Translations under genes and position numbers: made by a program
Assembly (NCBI RefSeq): GCF_022096995.1
Contig: NZ_JACXGQ010000003.1
Coordinates: 124,001 to 188,000 of the forward strand
DNA from: Yoonia sp. I 8.24
Lineage (GTDB): Bacteria > Pseudomonadota > Alphaproteobacteria > Rhodobacterales > Rhodobacteraceae
Direction: 5' to 3'
DNA length: 64,000 nucleotides
The notes under the pieces: generated by a model
The model's database searches: none
The model's input: the letters and a program-made list of their open reading frames with translations, nothing else
What the model was told of the DNA's origin: nothing
In this document: piece after piece, positions 28,788 to 45,013 of the stretch
Numbering within the stretch: position 1 is the stretch's first letter
How the letters are laid out: the number at the start of each line of letters is the position of its first letter

Positions 28788-29762
28788 ATGACAAAAACGG
28801 CGTTGGTATGTGGTGCAGGCGGCTTCATTGGCAATCATCTGGTGTCTGCATTAAAGGCAGAAGGGCTCCACGTCCGTGGCGTTGACCTGAAGCGCCCGGA
28901 ATTTGGCGACACGCAAGCAGATGAATTCATGGTTGGAGATTTACGCGATCAAAACTTTGTAGCCGAAGCCGTTGAGGCCAGATTTGACGAGATTTACCAA
29001 CTTGCTGCGGACATGGGCGGCGCGGGATTTGTGTTCACCGGTGACAATGATGCCGACATCATGCACAATTCCATGTCCATCAACATCAATGTTCTGGATG
29101 CCTGCAAGCGATCTGGCAGCAAACGGATTTTTTACTCTTCTTCTGCCTGTATTTACCCAGAAGAGAACCAAATGGATCCCGAAAACCCCAATTGCGAGGA
29201 GAGTAGCGCCTATCCTGCAAACCCCGACAGTGACTATGGTTGGGAAAAGCTAATTTCAGAACGACTTTATCAAGCGTTTGCGCGTAACTACGGGATGGAA
29301 TGCCGCATTGCGCGATATCACAACATCTTTGGGCCACTCGGGACTTGGCATGGTGGTCGTGAAAAGGCGCCGGCCGCTCTTTGCCGCAAGGTAGCTGAAG
29401 CCGAAGACGGTGACACAATCGAAATTTGGGGCGATGGCAAACAGACACGGACGTTTCTTTTTGTGGATGAATGTGTCGAAGGGACGCTTAAGCTCATGCG
29501 CTCTGATGTCGCGGAACCTGTTAATATCGGGTCAGATGAGCTTATCTCGATCAATGCTTTGGCTGACCTGATAGCCCAGATTGCAGGCAAGACCGTGCAG
29601 CTACAAAACATCCCTGGACCCGTCGGTGTGCGTGGGCGCTCATCGGACAATAGACTTATCGCTGACCGACTTGGCTGGTCTCCAAATGCCAAACTCGCGG
29701 ATGGGCTGCAACAGACCTACGCATGGATCGCCCGACAAGTGGCGGACACGCAGCATGGCTGA
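28788..29762 (+). CDS. GDP-mannose 3,5-epimerase-like SDR epimerase
   Basis: A 324-residue extended SDR enzyme. The NAD-binding GAGGFIGNHL comes first, then QLAADMGGAGFVFTGDNDAD. YSSSACIYPEENQ and the catalytic Y-x-x-x-K in DYGWEKLISERLY follow, then RYHNIFGPLGTWHGGREKAP. These are the diagnostic segments of GDP-mannose 3',5'-epimerases, which make GDP-L-galactose and GDP-L-gulose. That activity would supply an unusual L-sugar for the polysaccharide made in this region. ATG 28788 is chosen at the first strand; 14 earlier in-frame codons carry nothing. It overlaps the next gene by 8 nt, so the two are translationally coupled. Confidence 0.82.
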   Translation: MTKTALVCGAGGFIGNHLVSALKAEGLHVRGVDLKRPEFGDTQADEFMVGDLRDQNFVAEAVEARFDEIYQLAADMGGAGFVFTGDNDADIMHNSMSININVLDACKRSGSKRIFYSSSACIYPEENQMDPENPNCEESSAYPANPDSDYGWEKLISERLYQAFARNYGMECRIARYHNIFGPLGTWHGGREKAPAALCRKVAEAEDGDTIEIWGDGKQTRTFLFVDECVEGTLKLMRSDVAEPVNIGSDELISINALADLIAQIAGKTVQLQNIPGPVGVRGRSSDNRLIADRLGWSPNAKLADGLQQTYAWIARQVADTQHG

Positions 29763-30879
29763 CTTTAAGCTTGATCTGAACAGGACCTATCTGCTGTGCC
29801 GTCCGCGCGGTGGCTTCAACGATGTTATGGTCCAAATCGAGAAATGCCGCTTATACGCTATTAAGTTCAATCGTGTATTGATCATCGACACAACGCGCTC
29901 CGGCATGAAACTGCCGTTTCAGGATGTGTTCACAGCCCAAGATAGTTTTGGTTGCGAGGTGTTGGGGTGGACCTCCGAGATGATACCGGCATTTGATGAA
30001 GCCACGTCCGTTTACCCATCGGAAATTTGTCACCGCGTGTCTTCTTATGCCACGAATTGGGTGCCGCAACACAAATATTTTGTTGATACTGAGACTGGCC
30101 GTGAGCTTAATTTTGACGCGGCGATTGATCACAGCGAGCAAGTAATCGTCTATGAGCAAGCAGGCGGTGGACCCGCGTCCTTCGCGGCGCTGGATCGGTT
30201 AAGCTTTGTGCCGAAATTTGCCCGACTGATTACGAACAACTTGCGTCACCTGAACGCAAACTTTGACGCAGTCCACATTCGCCACTCGGACTACAAGACA
30301 GATTTCGCGACCTTTTTGACGCGGCTGCGTCCAGTGTTGCGGGGGCGACAGGTGTTAATCTGCTCTGACAGTGCGGATGCCATATCTAGCGCTTCAAAAA
30401 TTCTGCACCCGACGACAACCTTGCTAAGCGTCACAGAAACCCCGGACCTCGGTGGCGTTCCGTTGCATAGTACAGACGAACTTGATGCGACCGAAGCGCT
30501 CGTCGACCTGCTAAGCGATCTGATTGCTTTGTCGTTGTCGCGCAGGCTATTTTTCACATCGCTGTCGGGGGGGCATACGGATGACTTGCGTATTTCTGGG
30601 TTCTCATTGCTTGCCTTCATTTTGAACAAGAACCCAGATACGGTAAGGCGGCTCTTAGCTGCTGGTGACCCAGCTGAAATTGATTGGCAGTTTGCGAAGG
30701 CAACGCGAGATTCTAGTGTTACCCGCAGGTTCCATTTAATAAACTATTTTCGCTGGAACAGACGTGTAATCACGCAAGCATACAGCCGAAATCGACGGGC
30801 CAAACGGCAGAGTGCTCCTCCAGAACAGGTAGGAGCACGTTACGTTGGAAATACATCGAACACCGCGCCAACAAACTAG
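29755..30879 (+). CDS. possible fucosyltransferase-like (GT-B) protein
   Basis: A 374-residue protein from ATG 29755. The beginning, LLCRPRGGFNDVMVQIEKC then RVLIIDTTRSGMKLPF, resembles the 'R-x-G-G-x-N' loop and adjoining strand of NodZ and O-fucosyltransferase-like enzymes. A later VHIRHSDYKTDF resembles the basic 'H-x-R-x-x-D' donor motif, and VLICSDSADAISS the following Rossmann strand. Such enzymes use GDP-linked sugars, which fits the coupled GDP-mannose epimerase. The family match is by eye only; it may be an uncharacterised GT. The basic C-terminus (RNRRAKRQ) could touch the membrane. Confidence 0.45.
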   Translation: MADFKLDLNRTYLLCRPRGGFNDVMVQIEKCRLYAIKFNRVLIIDTTRSGMKLPFQDVFTAQDSFGCEVLGWTSEMIPAFDEATSVYPSEICHRVSSYATNWVPQHKYFVDTETGRELNFDAAIDHSEQVIVYEQAGGGPASFAALDRLSFVPKFARLITNNLRHLNANFDAVHIRHSDYKTDFATFLTRLRPVLRGRQVLICSDSADAISSASKILHPTTTLLSVTETPDLGGVPLHSTDELDATEALVDLLSDLIALSLSRRLFFTSLSGGHTDDLRISGFSLLAFILNKNPDTVRRLLAAGDPAEIDWQFAKATRDSSVTRRFHLINYFRWNRRVITQAYSRNRRAKRQSAPPEQVGARYVGNTSNTAPTN

Positions 30880-31039: not shown

Positions 31040-31411
31040 ATGGCTCGTTACAAGTTAGTAGGTCCCGACGTGGTCCACGAAGAATTTGACGGCGAGATTG
31101 TCGTGTTGAATCTGCAGACTGGCCAGTATTTTGGGCTCAACGAGGCCGGGGCGGCTTTGTGGATGGCGGTTGAAACAGGTCACGATCCTGTTGAAGTTTC
31201 AACAAAGCATGGCGCTGCATTTGCGACACGATTAGTTGCGCTGGGTCTGATTGTTGAAAGCGATGAAGTGGCTCTGCCTGCGCAAGTCCAAGACTTTGCA
31301 ACCGCTCCACTAATTGAAGTCTATGATGATCTGTCCGATCTCATACTTGCAGACCCCATTCATGATGTTGACGAAGAACGAGGGTGGCCCAAGGTGCCCG
31401 AAGACACATAA
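31040..31411 (+). CDS. PqqD-family protein with acidic C-terminal tail
   Basis: A 123-residue PqqD-like protein. The winged-helix RiPP-recognition core (residues 1-80) begins VVHEEFDGEIVVLNLQTGQY and has FGLNEAGAALWMAVETG, as in PqqD. PqqD domains bind leader peptides and present them to modifying enzymes. The protein continues past the core into a tail containing DLILADPIHDVDEERGWP, which looks like a separate peptide segment and could be a leader-like or substrate region. GAGGGGG precedes the ATG. It opens a tightly coupled operon with an HprK-like kinase, two GT2s and an NTP_transf_5 protein. No radical-SAM enzyme, cyclase or protease is present. Confidence 0.8.
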   Translation: MARYKLVGPDVVHEEFDGEIVVLNLQTGQYFGLNEAGAALWMAVETGHDPVEVSTKHGAAFATRLVALGLIVESDEVALPAQVQDFATAPLIEVYDDLSDLILADPIHDVDEERGWPKVPEDT

Positions 31412-31418
31412 CAATCCA

Positions 31419-32480
31419 ATGAGTGAAGCCGTTCTTCAGACACCTCTTATATCGTTCTGCGAACGGAGTGTTGTCACATCAATTGAGTCCCTTCTTGCGG
31501 GGTTTGATGATGCCTTTGCATCTGTCGCATACAAACGATCGCTGAATGTTGCAGGGTCAACATTCCATGTCGGCTCCAACGATCCAGCCTATTTGGATCA
31601 AGCAGAACGGGCATTAGCCACGCGCGACGTTCCAAGCGTGAGCCAATGTCGCATAGCTGTGATCAACGCTGATGATCGGCTTTGCCCTACGCTCTTCTGG
31701 CCACCCAATCGATTTCGTGAACGTGAAATTGAGGCGGTTCTTTCAACGACGCCCTACCGCATTCATTTTTATGATGATTTGAATTTCTGGCAAGTCTTTG
31801 ACGTAGACCGTGCCGTCGGAATCCAGTGGATGGCGACGCGCGACGGGTTTCCTGCGTGGGATGCTGGGTCGCCACTGCGCAACTTCGTGCAGTGGCATCT
31901 GGGCGCTAACGATACGTCTCTGTTACACGGCGGTACCTTGGCACTGGGCGGTACAGGTGTTTTGCTTGCGGGCAAAGGTGGGGCAGGGAAATCATCAACT
32001 GTGCTTGCCGGTATTTTCGCTGAGCTGCAAAGCGTTGGGGATGACTACGTGCTCGTTGATGCTACCAAACGAACGGCCCGCCCTGTTTTCGATACTTTGA
32101 AACAAGATGAAGCCGGGTTGCGCCGATTGGGTCAGTGGGGGCAAGCGGCAATCCCGAATAGGGCCAACTGGCAGGGCAAACACCAATTCTATTTGCCGGA
32201 CGTAACAAGGGGCGTTTTGTCGCCGCAAATCGATCTGAAAGCCATACTATTGCCGCACCTAGCGTTCGGCGACCAAACGAGTGTCACAGAAATTGATGCT
32301 AAGTCTGCGTTCATTGCTCTGGCGCCATCGGGGGTCACGCAAATTTACTGTGATCGTCCACGTCTATTTTCCGTCGCAGGTCGGATTGCGCGACAGCTGC
32401 CTGCCTATCGTCTAGATTTAGGCACTGATCCGGACGAAATCGTCGCAGTCTTGCGCCAGTTCATAAGGAAAATGCATTGA
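31419..32480 (+). CDS. HprK-related kinase
   Basis: A 353-residue protein related to HPr kinase/phosphorylase-like kinases found beside PqqD proteins. The P-loop is VLLAGKGGAGKSSTVLAGI near residue 190, followed by GDDYVLVDATKRTARP, which matches the acidic nucleotide-handling strand of HprK. The N-terminal half is family-specific. In lasso-peptide clusters related kinases phosphorylate peptide side chains; in others the substrate is unknown. ATG 31419 follows the PqqD stop by 7 nt; a longer frame from 31314 overlaps PqqD and is not credible. Its TGA overlaps the next gene's TTG by 4 nt. Confidence 0.8.
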   Translation: MSEAVLQTPLISFCERSVVTSIESLLAGFDDAFASVAYKRSLNVAGSTFHVGSNDPAYLDQAERALATRDVPSVSQCRIAVINADDRLCPTLFWPPNRFREREIEAVLSTTPYRIHFYDDLNFWQVFDVDRAVGIQWMATRDGFPAWDAGSPLRNFVQWHLGANDTSLLHGGTLALGGTGVLLAGKGGAGKSSTVLAGIFAELQSVGDDYVLVDATKRTARPVFDTLKQDEAGLRRLGQWGQAAIPNRANWQGKHQFYLPDVTRGVLSPQIDLKAILLPHLAFGDQTSVTEIDAKSAFIALAPSGVTQIYCDRPRLFSVAGRIARQLPAYRLDLGTDPDEIVAVLRQFIRKMH

Positions 32481-33229
32481 CCATCACCGTGATCATTCCC
32501 GTGTTCAATCGTGCAGAACATATCCGTCCCGCGATAGAATCCGTCTTAAGGCAAGACGCTACCCTGCCGCTTGATGTTTTGGTCGTCGATGACGGATCAA
32601 CCGATGATACGCCGCAAATCCTGTCCGACCTCGCCGCAGAAGATCCGCGCGTCAGAATTGTTCGTCGTGAAAACGGCGGTGTAACCCGCGCGCGCAATAC
32701 TGGCCTAGAGAATCTGTTACCAGAGACAGCGTTCGTAACGTTCCTAGACTCCGACGATATTATGGCACCCGATCGGTTTACGACCGATCTGCAAATCCTG
32801 CTTGATGAGCCTGATGTAGCAATCACCTACGGCGATATGTTGATCACTTTTGAAATTGATCGCGACACTTTCAGCGTACCAACGGATGCGAAGCAAATTG
32901 TACTGACCAGTATTCACTTGGCGTGCTGTCTATACAGACGTCCGCTGATCGAAAAAATTGGCAAGTTTGATGAAGGATTAGAAATGGCGGAAGACACTGA
33001 CTTCATTTTCAGGACCTTCGAGATTGGCGTGAATTTTCGGCAAACGCCGACAATTTGCCACTTCTATCTGCGCCATGAAGGGAATATGTCTTCCAGCTCG
33101 AAAGATAACGTATTGTGGTTTAACCGAGCGCTCGTGCGCAGTGTCGTGCGGCGCAGACGCGAACCTTGGCGCCGCCTCGTAAAGCCGGAGTTCAACGTCG
33201 AACTTCCACGGGACTTTTGGGCGCAATGA
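32477..33229 (+). CDS. glycosyltransferase family 2
   Basis: A 250-residue GT-A enzyme: ITVIIPVFNRAEHIRPAIES then VVDDGSTDDTPQ for nucleotide binding, VTRARNTGLE, the DxD-like FLDSDDIMAPD, and the acceptor-side segment EDTDFIFRTFE. It adds a sugar from a nucleotide donor. It starts at TTG, overlapping the kinase stop (TTGA), with AAGGAA about 8 nt upstream. Third gene of the PqqD operon; coupled by ATGA to a second GT2. No membrane segment, so it acts in the cytoplasm. Confidence 0.88.
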   Translation: MTITVIIPVFNRAEHIRPAIESVLRQDATLPLDVLVVDDGSTDDTPQILSDLAAEDPRVRIVRRENGGVTRARNTGLENLLPETAFVTFLDSDDIMAPDRFTTDLQILLDEPDVAITYGDMLITFEIDRDTFSVPTDAKQIVLTSIHLACCLYRRPLIEKIGKFDEGLEMAEDTDFIFRTFEIGVNFRQTPTICHFYLRHEGNMSSSSKDNVLWFNRALVRSVVRRRREPWRRLVKPEFNVELPRDFWAQ

Positions 33230-33894
33230 GTTACGCAGTCGTCATTCCGGCCTACAATGCCGAGCGTACCATTGTCGAAACCCTGGATTCGATCTTGGCG
33301 CAAACCTGTCAACCATCCGAGATTGTTGTTGTCGATGACGGATCGACTGATAGCACCGTTGAAATTGCCAAAGCCCATCGCGCAGCAACCCGTGTTATCA
33401 GCCAAACAAACACTGGGTGTGGCGGGGCAACGACATATGCGATCAGCCTGACAAGCGCCCCTGTCATCGCCGCGTTGGATGCCGACGACATCTGGTTGCC
33501 GCAGAAAATGGAACAACAATTGGAGCATCTGGCGGCCCTAGGTCCCAGCGCAATCTCGTTCACGAAGTCGCGCCAGTTTCACCATGATGACAATGATCGC
33601 AAGAAGGGTGTCGAACGGGACGCCATCATACGTTCAACGATGGTTCTGCATAGGCCTACATTTGAAAAAGTCGGCCCAATCATTGACCCACCCGGTGGCG
33701 CAGGTGACATGGTGGATTGGCTGGCGCGCGCACGCGTGGCTGGCTTCACCCTGAATATTTTGCCCGAGGTGCTAATGTTGCGCCGTATCATCCCGGGCAG
33801 CATGACCTACAGCGCTGAGGACGAAAGCCATCGCGGGTACTTGTCCGTTGCACGGGCGGCAATCATGCGCCGCCGTCAGGCTGAACAAAAATGA
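33226..33894 (+). CDS. glycosyltransferase family 2
   Basis: A 222-residue GT-A protein beginning MSYAVVIPAYNAERTIVETL, then VVDDGSTDSTVEIAK and the DxD motif AALDADDIW. It is short for the family and lacks a long acceptor domain, ending soon after EVLMLRRIIPGSMTY. It overlaps the preceding GT2 by 4 nt (ATGA) and the following nucleotidyltransferase by 4 nt. Two adjacent, different GT2s imply at least a disaccharide or two modification steps. The specific sugar is not visible. Confidence 0.85.
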   Translation: MSYAVVIPAYNAERTIVETLDSILAQTCQPSEIVVVDDGSTDSTVEIAKAHRAATRVISQTNTGCGGATTYAISLTSAPVIAALDADDIWLPQKMEQQLEHLAALGPSAISFTKSRQFHHDDNDRKKGVERDAIIRSTMVLHRPTFEKVGPIIDPPGGAGDMVDWLARARVAGFTLNILPEVLMLRRIIPGSMTYSAEDESHRGYLSVARAAIMRRRQAEQK

Positions 33895-35351
33895 ACAGTT
33901 TCCCGTCACGCCGATTTCCTAATTTTGCTTGGGCGTGGCCAGACGGCGGGCGTTTGCAATTGCTGCAAGCCGCCTTAAACCCCGACGAAGATATCGCGCT
34001 TCAGGCTTTGTCCACTTGGCTTTCTCAAAATGACCTCGATGATGCTAGCTTTCCTGAACACCGGCTCTTTGCGGCGATCACAACCCGTTTTGGGCGCAAG
34101 CTTGAAGGCTTGGCAGAATACCCGCGACTTGTTGGATTGCTTCGCCTGCACTGGACACAATCACGTCTCGCGGTTTCCGCCAATCTGCCACCTGTACGAA
34201 AATTCGTAGAGATGGGGCTAAAACCCGTCCTTCTTAAGGGCGCGGCGCGGGTTGCTCTTGATCCTACACAGCAAAAGTCACGCAGTGCGTTCGATCTTGA
34301 TCTCGTGATGCCAGATGCGGATTTTGAAACCGCAGTGTGTATGTTGCTTGATGATGGCTGGCAATCAACTCGCGGCGAAAGTGCGCTGGGGCTACGGGCC
34401 AGGTTGTCCAGTGTTCGCGCGCGCAATTTTAAGAAAGGTCGTTTCGGCGATATCGACCTGCACCGTTGCGCCTATCAAAACATTCAGGCGAACGCGCGGT
34501 TTGATGCAGAACTGCTTCGGGACGCGTTACCAGTCACATACTATGATCTGCCTGTATTTGTGCCGTCAGTCGAAGAACGCTTGGTGATGGCGATGGGGCA
34601 TGGCGCGTGGGACGGTCACCACCACAGCGACTGGTTGGTTGATATCGCTGGCATGCTGAACAGCGAAACAGTTGACTGGGACAAGCTATATGCCATCGCG
34701 CGAGGTCGAAATCTGCGCGGGCCAATAGCCATTGCGCTATCTTTCCTCGCAACGGAGATTAACATCCCCTTGCCTGATGACGTACTGCGCCGTTTCGGCG
34801 CACATACATCGCGGGCAAGGCTGCGCGATATCCCGTCTTTGATACTGGCGCGTGATACACAAAACCTGTCGGCCTTTCAGACCCGTGTGCGCGCTATTGT
34901 TCACGGGGCGTCACGTTTAGGAAGATCGGGCCGAGATGCGAAACGTGACACGCGCCAATTGCGGAGGTTTACGCGTCCCGCGCAGGTCAGCGATCCAAGC
35001 CCATCTGTTTTTTCTCACGTGTCTGCCCAACCTCAATCAATCGCGCCCGGAACCTGGACATTGAAAGCAAAACTATTGTTCAAGATGCCGGCTGTACGCA
35101 GGCGCATAGAACTTGAAATCAACGGCCCTGACCGCAACCTTGGTCACGTGCAAGTACTGCATCTTCGCAAGTCGGCAGGAACCTTCGTCGCCCAGTTTTC
35201 GATAAAACTGGAACTGGAAGAGACGGACTTTCCAATATCCTTAGTGTCTCTGAACAGCAAATACGTCGAAGCTGAACCCGACGCGCCCGAGCGTATCAAA
35301 TATGATCGACTGCCGTTTGTCCCGCTCCTCTTGGAGCTTAACCAAGGTTAG
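33891..35351 (+). CDS. NTP_transf_5 nucleotidyltransferase-family protein
   Basis: A 486-residue protein of the uncharacterised nucleotidyltransferase group PF14907. The core KPVLLKGAARVALDPTQQKS then AFDLDLVMPDADFETAVCML contains the LKG and D-x-D elements where nucleotide and metal would bind, followed by GDIDLHRCAYQN and SVEERLVMAMGHGAWDGHHH. Such proteins recur next to HprK-like kinases and PqqD proteins in glycan or peptide clusters, but their reaction is unknown. The last 100 or so residues form a separate domain. It starts at ATG 33891, overlapping the GT2 by 4 nt, and is the last gene of the coupled run. Confidence 0.8.
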   Translation: MNSFPSRRFPNFAWAWPDGGRLQLLQAALNPDEDIALQALSTWLSQNDLDDASFPEHRLFAAITTRFGRKLEGLAEYPRLVGLLRLHWTQSRLAVSANLPPVRKFVEMGLKPVLLKGAARVALDPTQQKSRSAFDLDLVMPDADFETAVCMLLDDGWQSTRGESALGLRARLSSVRARNFKKGRFGDIDLHRCAYQNIQANARFDAELLRDALPVTYYDLPVFVPSVEERLVMAMGHGAWDGHHHSDWLVDIAGMLNSETVDWDKLYAIARGRNLRGPIAIALSFLATEINIPLPDDVLRRFGAHTSRARLRDIPSLILARDTQNLSAFQTRVRAIVHGASRLGRSGRDAKRDTRQLRRFTRPAQVSDPSPSVFSHVSAQPQSIAPGTWTLKAKLLFKMPAVRRRIELEINGPDRNLGHVQVLHLRKSAGTFVAQFSIKLELEETDFPISLVSLNSKYVEAEPDAPERIKYDRLPFVPLLLELNQG

Positions 35352-35681
35352 ATTTAGGGCCGTTCTGATCTGAAGGACATGTAAGCATGAAGAACCAGCG
35401 GTGCGGAAGAAGCGGATCAGATTAGGAACCTGGGCAATGTGAACCAAAAGCAGGCTAGTTTTTGTTCCGCAGCTTTTAGGGGGGCAAACGAACGGCTCAT
35501 GTATGAGTTTTTTGATGAAGCAGCGCCAATGTCTTCTTGCCAGTGCAGTTGCATCTCGCGAAGAGACTTAGATGAACCGGATAGTGCCTGAGGGCGGCAG
35601 CCGCTTTAGTCTTAAGAGCAGCGGTCAGGCGGGTCCCGTAAAATCGTTGACAAACATTTGCTTCTCTGCGCTGTAGTAGCC
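35352..35681. other. gap after the PqqD operon; mostly no gene seen
   Basis: This 330-nt stretch has no convincing gene or terminator. Apart from the 30-codon frame described separately (35499-35591), it holds a direct T-rich patch near 35456-35464 and a possible -35 TTGACA at 35648-35653 shortly before the start of the next gene. It may carry that gene's promoter. Confidence 0.4.
35499..35591 (+). CDS. candidate 30-residue Cys-containing peptide (speculative)
   Basis: ATG 35499 opens a 30-codon frame, MYEFFDEAAPMSSCQCSCIS with ISRRDLDEPDSA at its end, holding three cysteines in C-x-C-x-C. It lies 147 nt downstream of the last gene of the PqqD operon on the same strand. A G-rich patch (AGGGGGG) lies 12-18 nt upstream, farther than a good ribosome site. 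An acidic start followed by a small-residue core is what a RiPP precursor might look like, but a frame of this length also arises by chance. Confidence 0.15.
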   Translation: MYEFFDEAAPMSSCQCSCISRRDLDEPDSA

Positions 35682-37742
35682 ATGCTTCACTACTATTGCT
35701 TTGCCCATGAACCGATCCGATTTGCGCTAGATCCGCGCGTTGTCGTCGTTGAAATGGGACCGCGCGGTGCGAGCAAGGTTGAAGCGACCAATCAGGTTGT
35801 ACACGCCTATGATTTGGTTGAGGATCTTGCGAAGGATCATTGCTGGCTAGGTGGTAGTCTTGGCAGTTTTGCCGTGCTGCGCCATCTCGCGCAGGTCGGT
35901 GCATCGCCTACAGATCGTGTATGCATTTCGCATTACCGTCGCTTTTTGTCGCCTGAACAACATGGGCAAGATGCGGCATCTGAGCCGGGTATCCGCACGA
36001 TTTCTACTGCGGATTGTGCGGTGCTAAACCCCTACAGCCTTGCCGAAAGCCATGCTCTCCCAATTCTCACTTCACAGCCTTGGACGGGCGGTTTTGGTGT
36101 GGGGCTTTCGGTGCGCGATCAATATGCGCGGGCACATTATCTAGAGGATCTCGACCGCTATATCGCGTTGGCGGTTGAGCTTGGTATTGTTGATCAAGGG
36201 AAGGTTGCACAATACCTTGACGCCCCAGTTTTTATTCCCGGCGGCATAGAGTTCAGCATGTGCCCGGTATCAATTTACGTTGATATCATTCAGAAAATCG
36301 AAAAATTGAACCGCGCCTATCTTGCGCGCTTTGAGACAGCTCACCGATCTGACTACCAAGATCGGTTTCTCTGCTACTGCAATGAACGGTTGGGCAGTTT
36401 CTTTTTGTCTGAGGCTGTGTTGGATTTGGATGCGCCTGAGGGGGATTGTGCGGGTTACATGCATATTGTGACCCCAACGCAAGCGATTGAACCGGGGATT
36501 TGGCAACCGCAAAGCGCGGCGCAAAAAACGCAAAGGATACTCACTGGCCGGACCTGTGTGTTGCACGTCGGGATGCCGCAAACAGGCGCGACAAGCCTTC
36601 AGTTCGCATTGCAGGACTACGATGACGGGCAGAGCATATCTGCGGGCCATATGATGCCCAATGGCTACCCAGTGAATAACGCGCTGATTGCGGGCGCGTT
36701 AGAACAACATGAAATCGATGCCTGTTTGGATTTTGTTGACCGGCTGGGGCAGACTGACCTTGATACGCGCTACCATGGTTGCGCGTGGGCGCTAAACGAT
36801 CTGCGCCGTGATCTGGGACATCATCCGCATAGGGATGGCATCCGCGACGGGCTTGTTGCTTGGTTATCGGCACATTCGACTCCGCGTGTGCTGTTTTCGG
36901 CGCCTGCACTGTTCAATATGCCCTCTGTCATGGGTCAGTTGTCGGCCTGGCTCGGCGCATTGTTTGATGATGTGCAGGTTATAGCATATGTTAGCCCCCC
37001 AGAAACACGTTTTGGGTCTGCGCTTGCGGATGCAGTCAGCGCTGTCGAATTTTCACAGTCTCGGTGGCTTTGGAAGCAACCGATTGAGGGGATTTCAATT
37101 GGTGGCGATCGCTTTATTGCTGCCTCCAAAGCGCAGTTTGGCCCTGCAAATGTGCGCGTAGTTCCTTACGATCGTGCAACGCTTATCGGGCATGATATCA
37201 CCCATGATTTTTGCGCGCGTTTTGATTTGGATATTGAAAAAGCGAAAGCGCTGAACGTGCCACATGGTCTCAGTGCCGAAGCGACAGCTATCCTCGCAAC
37301 CTATGTGGCATACGCGCGCGCCGATCCGCTGCCCGCAAGGAGCTTTGGTAACCGGATGGCATTGCACAAAGTTCTCGAAAGCTTTGGGGAAAAGGTTTTC
37401 TTGCTGAATGAGGCAGGCGGAGGTGTTGGCAATGATTATGTGCGCATCACAACGCGACAGGACATTCTCGATTTTGGTGCGGAGCAGATCGAAAGTTTCC
37501 GACAGCATTTGGCTTCACAATGGTCGCTGCAACTGCCTAAATCGGTCAACAGCAGCCGGGTGCTCGGTCAATATTTGGATGAATTGATGCGGTCGAAGCT
37601 GCGGGCAAAGATTACGCCAGTTTTGCCGCAAGGGTTTGATCCCGATCGGTACATTTGGAAGAATCGAGATGTGGCTTTAGCAGGTATTTCGGCAGAGAAA
37701 CATTTCCTAAGGCATGGGTACTTTGAGGGGCGTCAGACCTAG
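35682..37742 (+). CDS. fusion: DUF4422-like GT domain + sulfotransferase-like domain + NPDV/EGR tail
   Basis: A roughly 686-residue fusion. Residues 1-280 resemble DUF4422-type glycosyltransferase domains (CWLGGSLGSFAVLRHL, then ISHYRRFLSPEQ and a late FLCYCNERLGSFFL). From about residue 292 comes a sulfotransferase-like domain, CVLHVGMPQTGATSLQFAL. Its expected Lys in K-T-G-T-T is Gln and the third position of TGT is Ala, so PAPS binding may be impaired. The last 35 residues, GFDPDRYIWKNRDVALAGIS then HFLRHGYFEGRQT, form a tail shared with the 43868 gene. ATG 35682 is chosen over the TTG 24 nt upstream. The domain combination is unusual. Confidence 0.62.
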   Translation: MLHYYCFAHEPIRFALDPRVVVVEMGPRGASKVEATNQVVHAYDLVEDLAKDHCWLGGSLGSFAVLRHLAQVGASPTDRVCISHYRRFLSPEQHGQDAASEPGIRTISTADCAVLNPYSLAESHALPILTSQPWTGGFGVGLSVRDQYARAHYLEDLDRYIALAVELGIVDQGKVAQYLDAPVFIPGGIEFSMCPVSIYVDIIQKIEKLNRAYLARFETAHRSDYQDRFLCYCNERLGSFFLSEAVLDLDAPEGDCAGYMHIVTPTQAIEPGIWQPQSAAQKTQRILTGRTCVLHVGMPQTGATSLQFALQDYDDGQSISAGHMMPNGYPVNNALIAGALEQHEIDACLDFVDRLGQTDLDTRYHGCAWALNDLRRDLGHHPHRDGIRDGLVAWLSAHSTPRVLFSAPALFNMPSVMGQLSAWLGALFDDVQVIAYVSPPETRFGSALADAVSAVEFSQSRWLWKQPIEGISIGGDRFIAASKAQFGPANVRVVPYDRATLIGHDITHDFCARFDLDIEKAKALNVPHGLSAEATAILATYVAYARADPLPARSFGNRMALHKVLESFGEKVFLLNEAGGGVGNDYVRITTRQDILDFGAEQIESFRQHLASQWSLQLPKSVNSSRVLGQYLDELMRSKLRAKITPVLPQGFDPDRYIWKNRDVALAGISAEKHFLRHGYFEGRQT

Positions 37743-43867: not shown

Positions 43868-45013
43868 TCAAGAATATTTGCGCCCTTCGTAGCGGCCATT
43901 GCTCAGATAGTGTTTCACAGGGTCGACCCCGGCGGCCTCAACATCTGGGTTTAAGAGAAGGTAGACCAATGGATCAAAGCCTGTTGGTAGCGCCTTGTTC
44001 GGCACAAACTTGGGTCTGTTCAGTTCCATCTCCATGGCCTCGCGTATCGTCTCAAAGAGCGGTGTTAAGTCTTCCAGACGATATGTGTCGTCACTTGTTT
44101 GGTCATAATCACGCGGATGATTGCGTAGCTGTTCGTCTGCAGGCAGCTTTCCATTTAATGTCGCGATTGCGCCAGATAAGTAGTCAAGCAGAATGCGGTC
44201 GACCTCTCTGAAATAGGGGTCTTTGATGGGATCAGTTTGCGCACGAAAGCGTTTAATCAACAGCGCCTTAAGCACCGATGATCCAATGTGTTTGTTTGTT
44301 GTGATGATTTGACTGGCTTGGCGATAGGAAACGGATGGGTTGCTAAGGCGATCCTTGGGGTGGACTCGTTGGAATTTTGCCGCATCAATCCCCATTTCAC
44401 GCAACATCGGGGCGAAGATGTCTTTGCGGTGAACGTCGTAGTTGATGATCCGCACGTCGAAGCCTGTCGTGATGTAGCGCGCGACATTCATGGTAACTCT
44501 GTCTGATTGGCCTGAAACGATGAGAGCAATGCGTTCGCTAAGGCTATGGTGCGATTTGCCCGTTTTTACGCGTTGCTTCCATGCAGATATGGCTTGATCA
44601 TAGGGATCACGCACATAGGCGACCAGAGTGACCCTATTTTCGCGTTCAAGCTTGCGAAGGATGTCTGATGCCTTGTCGAAGTCTAGGTTCGAAATGGCTT
44701 CAGAGCTGAAAAGCACTTTGTCGCAATCCGCTTCTGCGAGTCCTTTGCCGATAATTTGCTCAAACCAAACTAGATCAGTGCGGTTGACCCCATTTTGAAA
44801 GGTTGGGACACCTTTCCGTTCTATAATGTGCACCATATTTCCAGTGCACACGCCTGAGGAAATGGTCCCTAAGCTCTCTGGAAACGGATAGGAAATGCCT
44901 TGATCGGCGAGGGCTTTGGCGTTGATCGTCAGGCATTCTTGCAGAGCTGATGACCCCGTCTTGGGAAGTCCAATATGCAGAAAGATATGTCGTTTTTTCA
45001 ACGGCGCCCCCAA
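43868..45013 (-). CDS. sulfotransferase-like protein with NPDV/EGR tail
   Basis: About 381 residues. The N-terminal HIFLHIGLPKTGSSALQECL is the PAPS-loop pattern with the lysine retained, and LVAYVRDPYDQAISAWKQRV carries the R-D-P segment of the 3'-phosphate site. After a helical middle, the last 37 residues contain FDPLVYLLLNPDVEAAGVDP and HYLSNGRYEGRKYS. A closely similar tail ends the fusion protein at 35682. The start is TTG 45013 (or the TTG four codons later); no ATG fits. Likely decorates the rhamnose-containing glycan with sulfate, judged by location. Confidence 0.7.
   Translation of the reverse strand: MGAPLKKRHIFLHIGLPKTGSSALQECLTINAKALADQGISYPFPESLGTISSGVCTGNMVHIIERKGVPTFQNGVNRTDLVWFEQIIGKGLAEADCDKVLFSSEAISNLDFDKASDILRKLERENRVTLVAYVRDPYDQAISAWKQRVKTGKSHHSLSERIALIVSGQSDRVTMNVARYITTGFDVRIINYDVHRKDIFAPMLREMGIDAAKFQRVHPKDRLSNPSVSYRQASQIITTNKHIGSSVLKALLIKRFRAQTDPIKDPYFREVDRILLDYLSGAIATLNGKLPADEQLRNHPRDYDQTSDDTYRLEDLTPLFETIREAMEMELNRPKFVPNKALPTGFDPLVYLLLNPDVEAAGVDPVKHYLSNGRYEGRKYS

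Follow-up and report, generated by a model that had tools for sequence, protein, structure and literature searches.

Two kinds of described systems come closest, by analogy, to the locus studied here: the tailoring of paeninodin-type lasso peptides and the linear polyphosphorylated peptides (LPP; LppA/K/B/S/D/N) of Bacillota. In the tailoring of paeninodin and pseudomycoidin (PadeK, ThcoK, PsmK and PsmN), as described in PMC9266682, an HprK-like kinase carries a His-Lys-Asp-Asp motif that is essential by mutation, the recognition element has the lasso-type fold, and PsmN, annotated as a nucleotidyltransferase, is reported to add hexoses to the phosphoserine of pseudomycoidin. LPP systems (PMC13381572, May 2026) combine a kinase, a recognition element and an NTP transferase without a cyclase, and their kinase LppK phosphorylates a serine multiply. 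The subject of this analysis is a set of five genes within a 64,000-nucleotide (nt) stretch of Yoonia sp. I 8.24 (the window; GCF_022096995.1, contig NZ_JACXGQ010000003.1, positions 124,001-188,000). The genes lie on the plus strand (31040-35351) and encode a PqqD-family protein, an HprK-like kinase, two family-2 glycosyltransferases (GT2a and GT2b) and an NTP_transf_5 nucleotidyltransferase-like protein (NTase); kinase, NTase and recognition element are what they appear to share with both described systems. We tentatively read them as a cyclase-free cassette of the type that makes ribosomally synthesised and post-translationally modified peptides (RiPPs), in which the other four proteins would phosphorylate, glycosylate and cap a tail built into the PqqD protein, without a lasso cyclase or leader protease; we consider this quite possible, though short of probable.

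According to PMC13381572, LPP loci resemble the cassette in having a discrete recognition element, an HprK-like kinase and an NTP transferase, in lacking a lasso cyclase and in lying in polysaccharide loci; features of their own are separate precursors (YxxPxVLxHQxIxFETxxS), an SpI peptidase and an MsbA-like exporter. The window cassette differs by its two GT2 genes, by the tail on the recognition protein, and in that no separate precursor was found and no peptidase belongs to the set. An NTP transferase is common to both, but LppN is likened to the window protein (PF14907) by its label rather than by a PF14907 match. The start of the LPP precursor motif (YxxPxVLxHQ type) had no match in the six frames of the window, and the best genome match to the archaeal-type signal peptidase SpI was below the cut-off (21.6 versus 51.85 bits) and on another contig; thus, the cassette is not an LPP system as defined. 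No MsbA-like exporter was recognised among the open reading frames (ORFs) read at 24-44 kb of the window, not all of which were scanned. In comparison with the paeninodin/pseudomycoidin type, the cassette has no cyclase, no B2 protease and no precursor with a C-terminal serine that we could find. A search of the window's genome for the lasso leader protease B2 (PF13471) gave no match at E 0.1, and the four partial PF00733 (Asn-synthase-like) matches of this genome (21-26 bits) were identified as MnmA, ArgG, NadE and GuaA, all of them housekeeping enzymes. The absence of cyclase and protease, already claimed in an earlier note on this DNA, is therefore borne out, and the cassette is not a lasso cluster. 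The same note had called the genes a candidate new pathway: a conserved cyclase-free set does stand, but it is not wholly new in kind, as a cyclase-free combination of kinase, recognition element and NTP transferase is described in PMC13381572.

Likeness to other families is more remote. The NCBIfam HprK-related kinases A and B (TIGR04352, TIGR04355) match at 19.8 and 14.6 bits against a curated cut-off of 200 each, so the window kinase is not a member of either. SynChlorMet has a similar pair (the kinase-like ScmC and the PqqD-like ScmD), with weak matches of 17.6 and 15.1 bits, below the cut-offs of 100 and 125. GT2-GT2-NTase genes are not known to be part of the SynChlorMet cassette.

What is new here is a lasso-type recognition element modelled for residues 1-77 of the PqqD protein, together with a DPIHDVDxxxGWP tail. 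Judged by its sequence, the window PqqD is a fusion of a recognition domain and a highly conserved C-terminal tail, which the earlier note had not remarked on. The match to PF05402 (27.7 bits, cut-off 23.4) covers only positions 1-33 of the 67 of the profile. In the full AlphaFold2 model (mean predicted local distance difference test score, pLDDT, 86.6), residues 1-77 have the TbiB1-leader complex as best fold match and are predicted to fold as a lasso-type RiPP recognition element (RRE). The pLDDT averages 94 for residues 81-90 and 83 for residues 91-100 and is 55-59 for residues 101-123: a strand (92-95) is set against the protein body, and the DPIHDVDxxxGWP block is disordered (pLDDT about 58).

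When the PqqD proteins are aligned, an RRE-like N-terminal part is followed by a variable linker and then by the C-terminal block. Across 33 thinned sequences, mean column entropy rises from 1.96 bits in residues 1-77 to 2.74 in the linker (78-90) and falls to 1.07 in the tail (91-117), with 0.75 for residues 105-117; the tail is thus more conserved than the recognition domain (1.07 versus 1.96 bits), and D105, P106, H108, G115, W116 and P117 are at 100%. DP[IV]H..GWP is present in 83 of 84 PqqD proteins, with the tail consensus DPIHDVDxxxGWP; the only exception, in locus L005, reads DPIHDID..G without WP. Counting all frames, the motif is present once in the window and once per locus in 79 of 80 loci; the remaining one, L039, has no copy, its contig beginning after PqqD. 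The tailed family is found in Pseudomonadota and Cyanobacteriota and in a metagenome-assembled genome (MAG) labelled Lentisphaeria. A search from a Magnetaquicoccus relative returned 64 proteins, 59 of them tailed by regular expression, and in 55 of the 64 the motif [FYW]xxPx[LIVFMA] ends exactly 12 residues ahead of DP[IV]H (elsewhere in one more); in shuffled sequence, any such motif occurs in 5.3 of 64. Discrete lasso recognition elements bind [Y/W]xxPx[L/V/I/F/A], as stated in PMC13381572. The alphaproteobacterial set has Pro-x-hydrophobic before D[LM] in 25 of 33 sequences.

To sample the gene set, an alignment of 44 kinase homologues was used for a scan of one genome per species; 256 stretches matched, 104 with an encoded relative, and the best 80 of these 104 were kept, giving 81 loci with the window and 34 groups after thinning at 60% kinase identity. 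Because sampling was via the kinase, the counts tell what the kinase travels with, not how frequent the set is. The loci are labelled mostly as Hyphomicrobiales (above all Mesorhizobium) and Rhodobacterales; a few MAGs with other labels (one Deinococcota, one beta proteobacterium) are possibly mis-binned. In 78 of 81 loci, and in 31 of 34 after thinning, the five genes share a strand and lie no more than 6 kb from the start of the kinase gene, so that the set is no accidental adjacency, a possibility that the earlier note had raised. The exact order PqqD-HprK-GT2a-GT2b-NTase is kept in 70 of 81 loci (44 plain, 26 with one extra GT2a; profiles built from the loci); eight have all five genes in a different arrangement, in some cases through the sorting of overlapping frames, and three have one or more genes missing from the kinase strand (L039 and L079, both at a contig end; L111, with PqqD on the opposite strand). 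The tight coupling in the window, proposed earlier, was confirmed in both coordinates and spacing: the kinase gene starts 7 nt past the PqqD stop and each later junction is a 4-nt overlap with the preceding gene. By a lenient measure that picks the start nearest to the stop, this start is within 30 nt of the upstream stop at HprK>GT2a in 79/79, at GT2a>GT2b in 75/75 and at GT2b>NTase in 74/74 gene pairs, and at PqqD>HprK in just 47/78. No other partner accompanies the kinase as constantly as the tailed PqqD, a family protein being found by phmmer in 84 of 85 loci. When the single window kinase was compared with 198 genomes of the same family, 35 matched at E 0.001 and six (own included) were below E 1e-7, the remainder being short P-loop matches. 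With each of two profiles, the tail was found in at least six of the phylum's 398 genomes, one of the six being the window's own; this is a lower bound, as many genomes had only part of their first-look candidates scored.

All four enzymes carry conserved motifs. Hpr_kinase_C scores only 24 bits on the window kinase, under the cut-off of 33.3, but a profile of the kinase family can be aligned to HPr kinase/phosphatase 1ko7 (E 0.0065), the His, the P-loop Lys and the Asp-Asp included, which makes the label firmer than the weak Pfam score. All 44 homologues have H170, K191, D208 and D209, which probably represent the same four positions as the reported lasso-kinase motif; the strict H-K-D-D pattern is found in 79 of 81 loci, and the remaining two have the residues on reading. 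The best start of the kinase gene is the ATG at 31419, matching the homologues, and the mechanical ORF opens earlier, at a TTG (31314). PF27840 is a precomputed accession on many kinase homologues and was not reported by the Pfam scan of the window kinase (31419-32480). Across 34 loci, DGS and DxDD (GT2a) and DDGS and DxDD (GT2b) are conserved at 90% or more. PF14907 scores 71.4 bits on the NTase (cut-off 31.2), whose K116, G117, R131, D135, D137, D189 and H191 are invariant in 40 of 40 aligned sequences and whose AlphaFold2 model has a mean pLDDT of 93.1.

Table 1. The five genes and their predicted parts (window positions).
Feature	Position	Strand	Remarks
PqqD-family protein, recognition domain and C-terminal tail	31040..31411	+	123 aa; PF05402 27.7 bits
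RRE fold, lasso-type, residues 1-77	31040..31270	+	modelled
Tail, residues 91-117: strand 92-95, short helix 99-102, then DPIHDVDEERGWP	31310..31390	+	conservation and model
Invariant core-like block DPIHDVDEERGWP	31352..31390	+	conserved columns, 33 sequences
HprK-like kinase	31419..32480	+	353 aa; H170, P-loop K191, D208, D209
GT2a, family-2 glycosyltransferase	32477..33229	+	250 aa, TTG start; PF00535 104.4 bits
GT2b, family-2 glycosyltransferase	33226..33894	+	222 aa; PF00535 103.5 bits
NTP_transf_5 nucleotidyltransferase-like protein	33891..35351	+	486 aa; PF14907 71.4 bits
Nucleotidyltransferase fold, NTase residues about 81-303	34131..34799	+	
Beta-sandwich resembling CBM35-type carbohydrate-binding modules, NTase residues about 363-486	34977..35348	+	

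If the PqqD tail is the substrate, strand 92-95 would occupy the leader-peptide-binding groove, so that the tail is presented by the recognition domain of the same protein. The kinase would phosphorylate either the tail itself or a sugar attached to it, and GT2a, GT2b and the NTase, which has a carbohydrate-binding-like domain, would extend the modification as PsmN reportedly does. As the conserved gene set has no release protease or exporter, the finished product may remain on its carrier protein. This is the simplest reading because the tail is the only candidate substrate in every complete set, is leader- and core-like in the wider relatives, and has no competitor nearby: no small-ORF family within 3 kb is shared among the 33 loci compared, except PqqD and frames overlapping larger genes, although a precursor unique to one locus could escape this comparison. 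The earlier note had stated that a clear precursor is absent; no separate one was found beside the operon, but a candidate substrate may be fused to the PqqD C-terminus. A more specific version, which we regard as on the unlikely side, is that no precursor gene exists and the recognition protein itself serves as precursor: a leader-like strand and a near-invariant core would be fused to its C-terminus, and the enzymes would build a phospho-glycan there. The product would then be tethered to the carrier or be a cofactor-like molecule, with conservation on a par with that of the PqqA and MftA cores.

Several observations weigh against modification of the tail. It has no Ser/Thr/Tyr/Cys column at 50% or more in the 33 sequences (the only such columns of PqqD, Y4 and Y30, are outside it), whereas serine is the target of those kinases of this type that have been characterised (PMC9266682, PMC13381572); the missing Ser/Thr is the weak point of a self-substrate, and phosphate on a GT2-added sugar would, speculatively, reconcile the two. 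RiPP cores are usually variable, and a near-invariant block also fits a docking motif. The aromatic residue of the leader motif is kept by only 1 of 33 sequences of the alphaproteobacterial set, DSSP assigns strand 92-95 without naming its partner strand, and a profile of the tail had no match among solved structures, leader peptides included. Finally, locus L123 pairs a PqqD without the DPIH tail with the same enzymes, in a related HprK-GT2-NTase locus with an ATP-binding cassette (ABC) exporter. Much of this would be expected if PqqD acted as an adaptor, with DPIHDVDxxxGWP holding the kinase or NTase and the PqqD groove binding a substrate peptide encoded elsewhere in the genome: such a tail would be near-invariant across phyla and free of conserved Ser/Thr/Tyr, and the untailed PqqD of L123 also fits. 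This explanation, possible if doubtful, is nearly as good as a self-substrate, but the tail itself bears a leader-type motif in most wider relatives, as modelled against the protein body it would compete with a substrate in trans, and the 33 loci share no candidate precursor within 3 kb, the distance to which the search extended.

A glycan or small molecule as substrate is unlikely. The GT2s would build a saccharide, the kinase would phosphorylate and the NTase decorate it, with PqqD as scaffold; the two GT2s, the CBM35-like domain of the NTase and the surrounding glycan locus, with its RgpF and epimerase matches, are in line with this, but the constancy of the tailed PqqD beside the kinase is not. 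The glycan setting described by the earlier note holds locally, whereas in those Mesorhizobium loci that were read the neighbours resemble betaine-oxygenase-type and sugar-ABC-transporter genes, so that glycan surroundings do not define the system. It is very improbable that the cassette is a decayed or split lasso cluster with cyclase and protease lost or elsewhere, even though recognition element, kinase and NTase are common to paeninodin-type clusters: the genome has no PF13471 match, its four PF00733 matches are other enzymes, and decay would not leave the set intact in 31 of 34 diverse loci.

Mining of genomes for RiPPs seeks a recognition element beside a short precursor gene; if the tail is indeed modified, substrates carried by their own recognition protein would be passed over, and the chemistry of HprK-type kinases and NTases would widen from lasso and linear peptides of Bacillota to an operon of free-living and plant-associated alphaproteobacteria. 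Even if the tail serves in docking, DPIHDVDxxxGWP would be a new motif of interaction for a family of kinases of which few partners are known.

Distant loci show variants of the set. L119 (Magnetaquicoccus) has a tailed PqqD, HprK and two GT2 genes; 8,000 of its 15,879 bases were covered, and they gave no NTase match. In L120 a tailed PqqD and HprK are joined by a single GT2, and the NTase lies on the opposite strand. HprK, GT2 and NTase stand with an ABC exporter in L121, whose tailed PqqD is seen in L006, and L122 combines a tailed PqqD, HprK, GT2 frames and an ABC exporter. Among six distant loci, the strict kinase pattern failed in one, L120. A Crinalium plasmid carries genes for a tailed PqqD, an NTase, an HPr kinase, FkbM and GT proteins; cyclase and protease are absent among its 16 annotated features shown. 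The D-x-D region looks altered on reading in two NTP_transf_5 proteins (L123:11297-12310, 35.7 bits; L126:6367-7431, 66 bits), which may be inactive and accompany a further NTase of their locus.

The extra GT2a copy, in 26 loci otherwise in exact order, is found mostly in Mesorhizobium (L042-L093), and the gap between the copies is longer (median 46 nt). A radical S-adenosylmethionine (SAM) protein (PF04055, 36.7 bits for the L037 copy; cluster c26) is encoded near the cassette in eight loci, in several directly upstream of PqqD, but not beside the window copy; examples are L035:8547-9512, L036:8559-9548, L040:8434-9420 and L041:5064-6095, and L004 and L040 look like one genome. The product of the gene immediately upstream in the window (29761-30879) has no Pfam or NCBIfam match at E 0.1, and its relatives lie near the cassette in L032, L037, L038 and L083 (cluster c39). 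Two further window proteins have a sulfotransferase-like look: 43868-45013, without a Pfam match at E 0.01, and 35658-37742, weakly matched by PF17784 (E 0.038).

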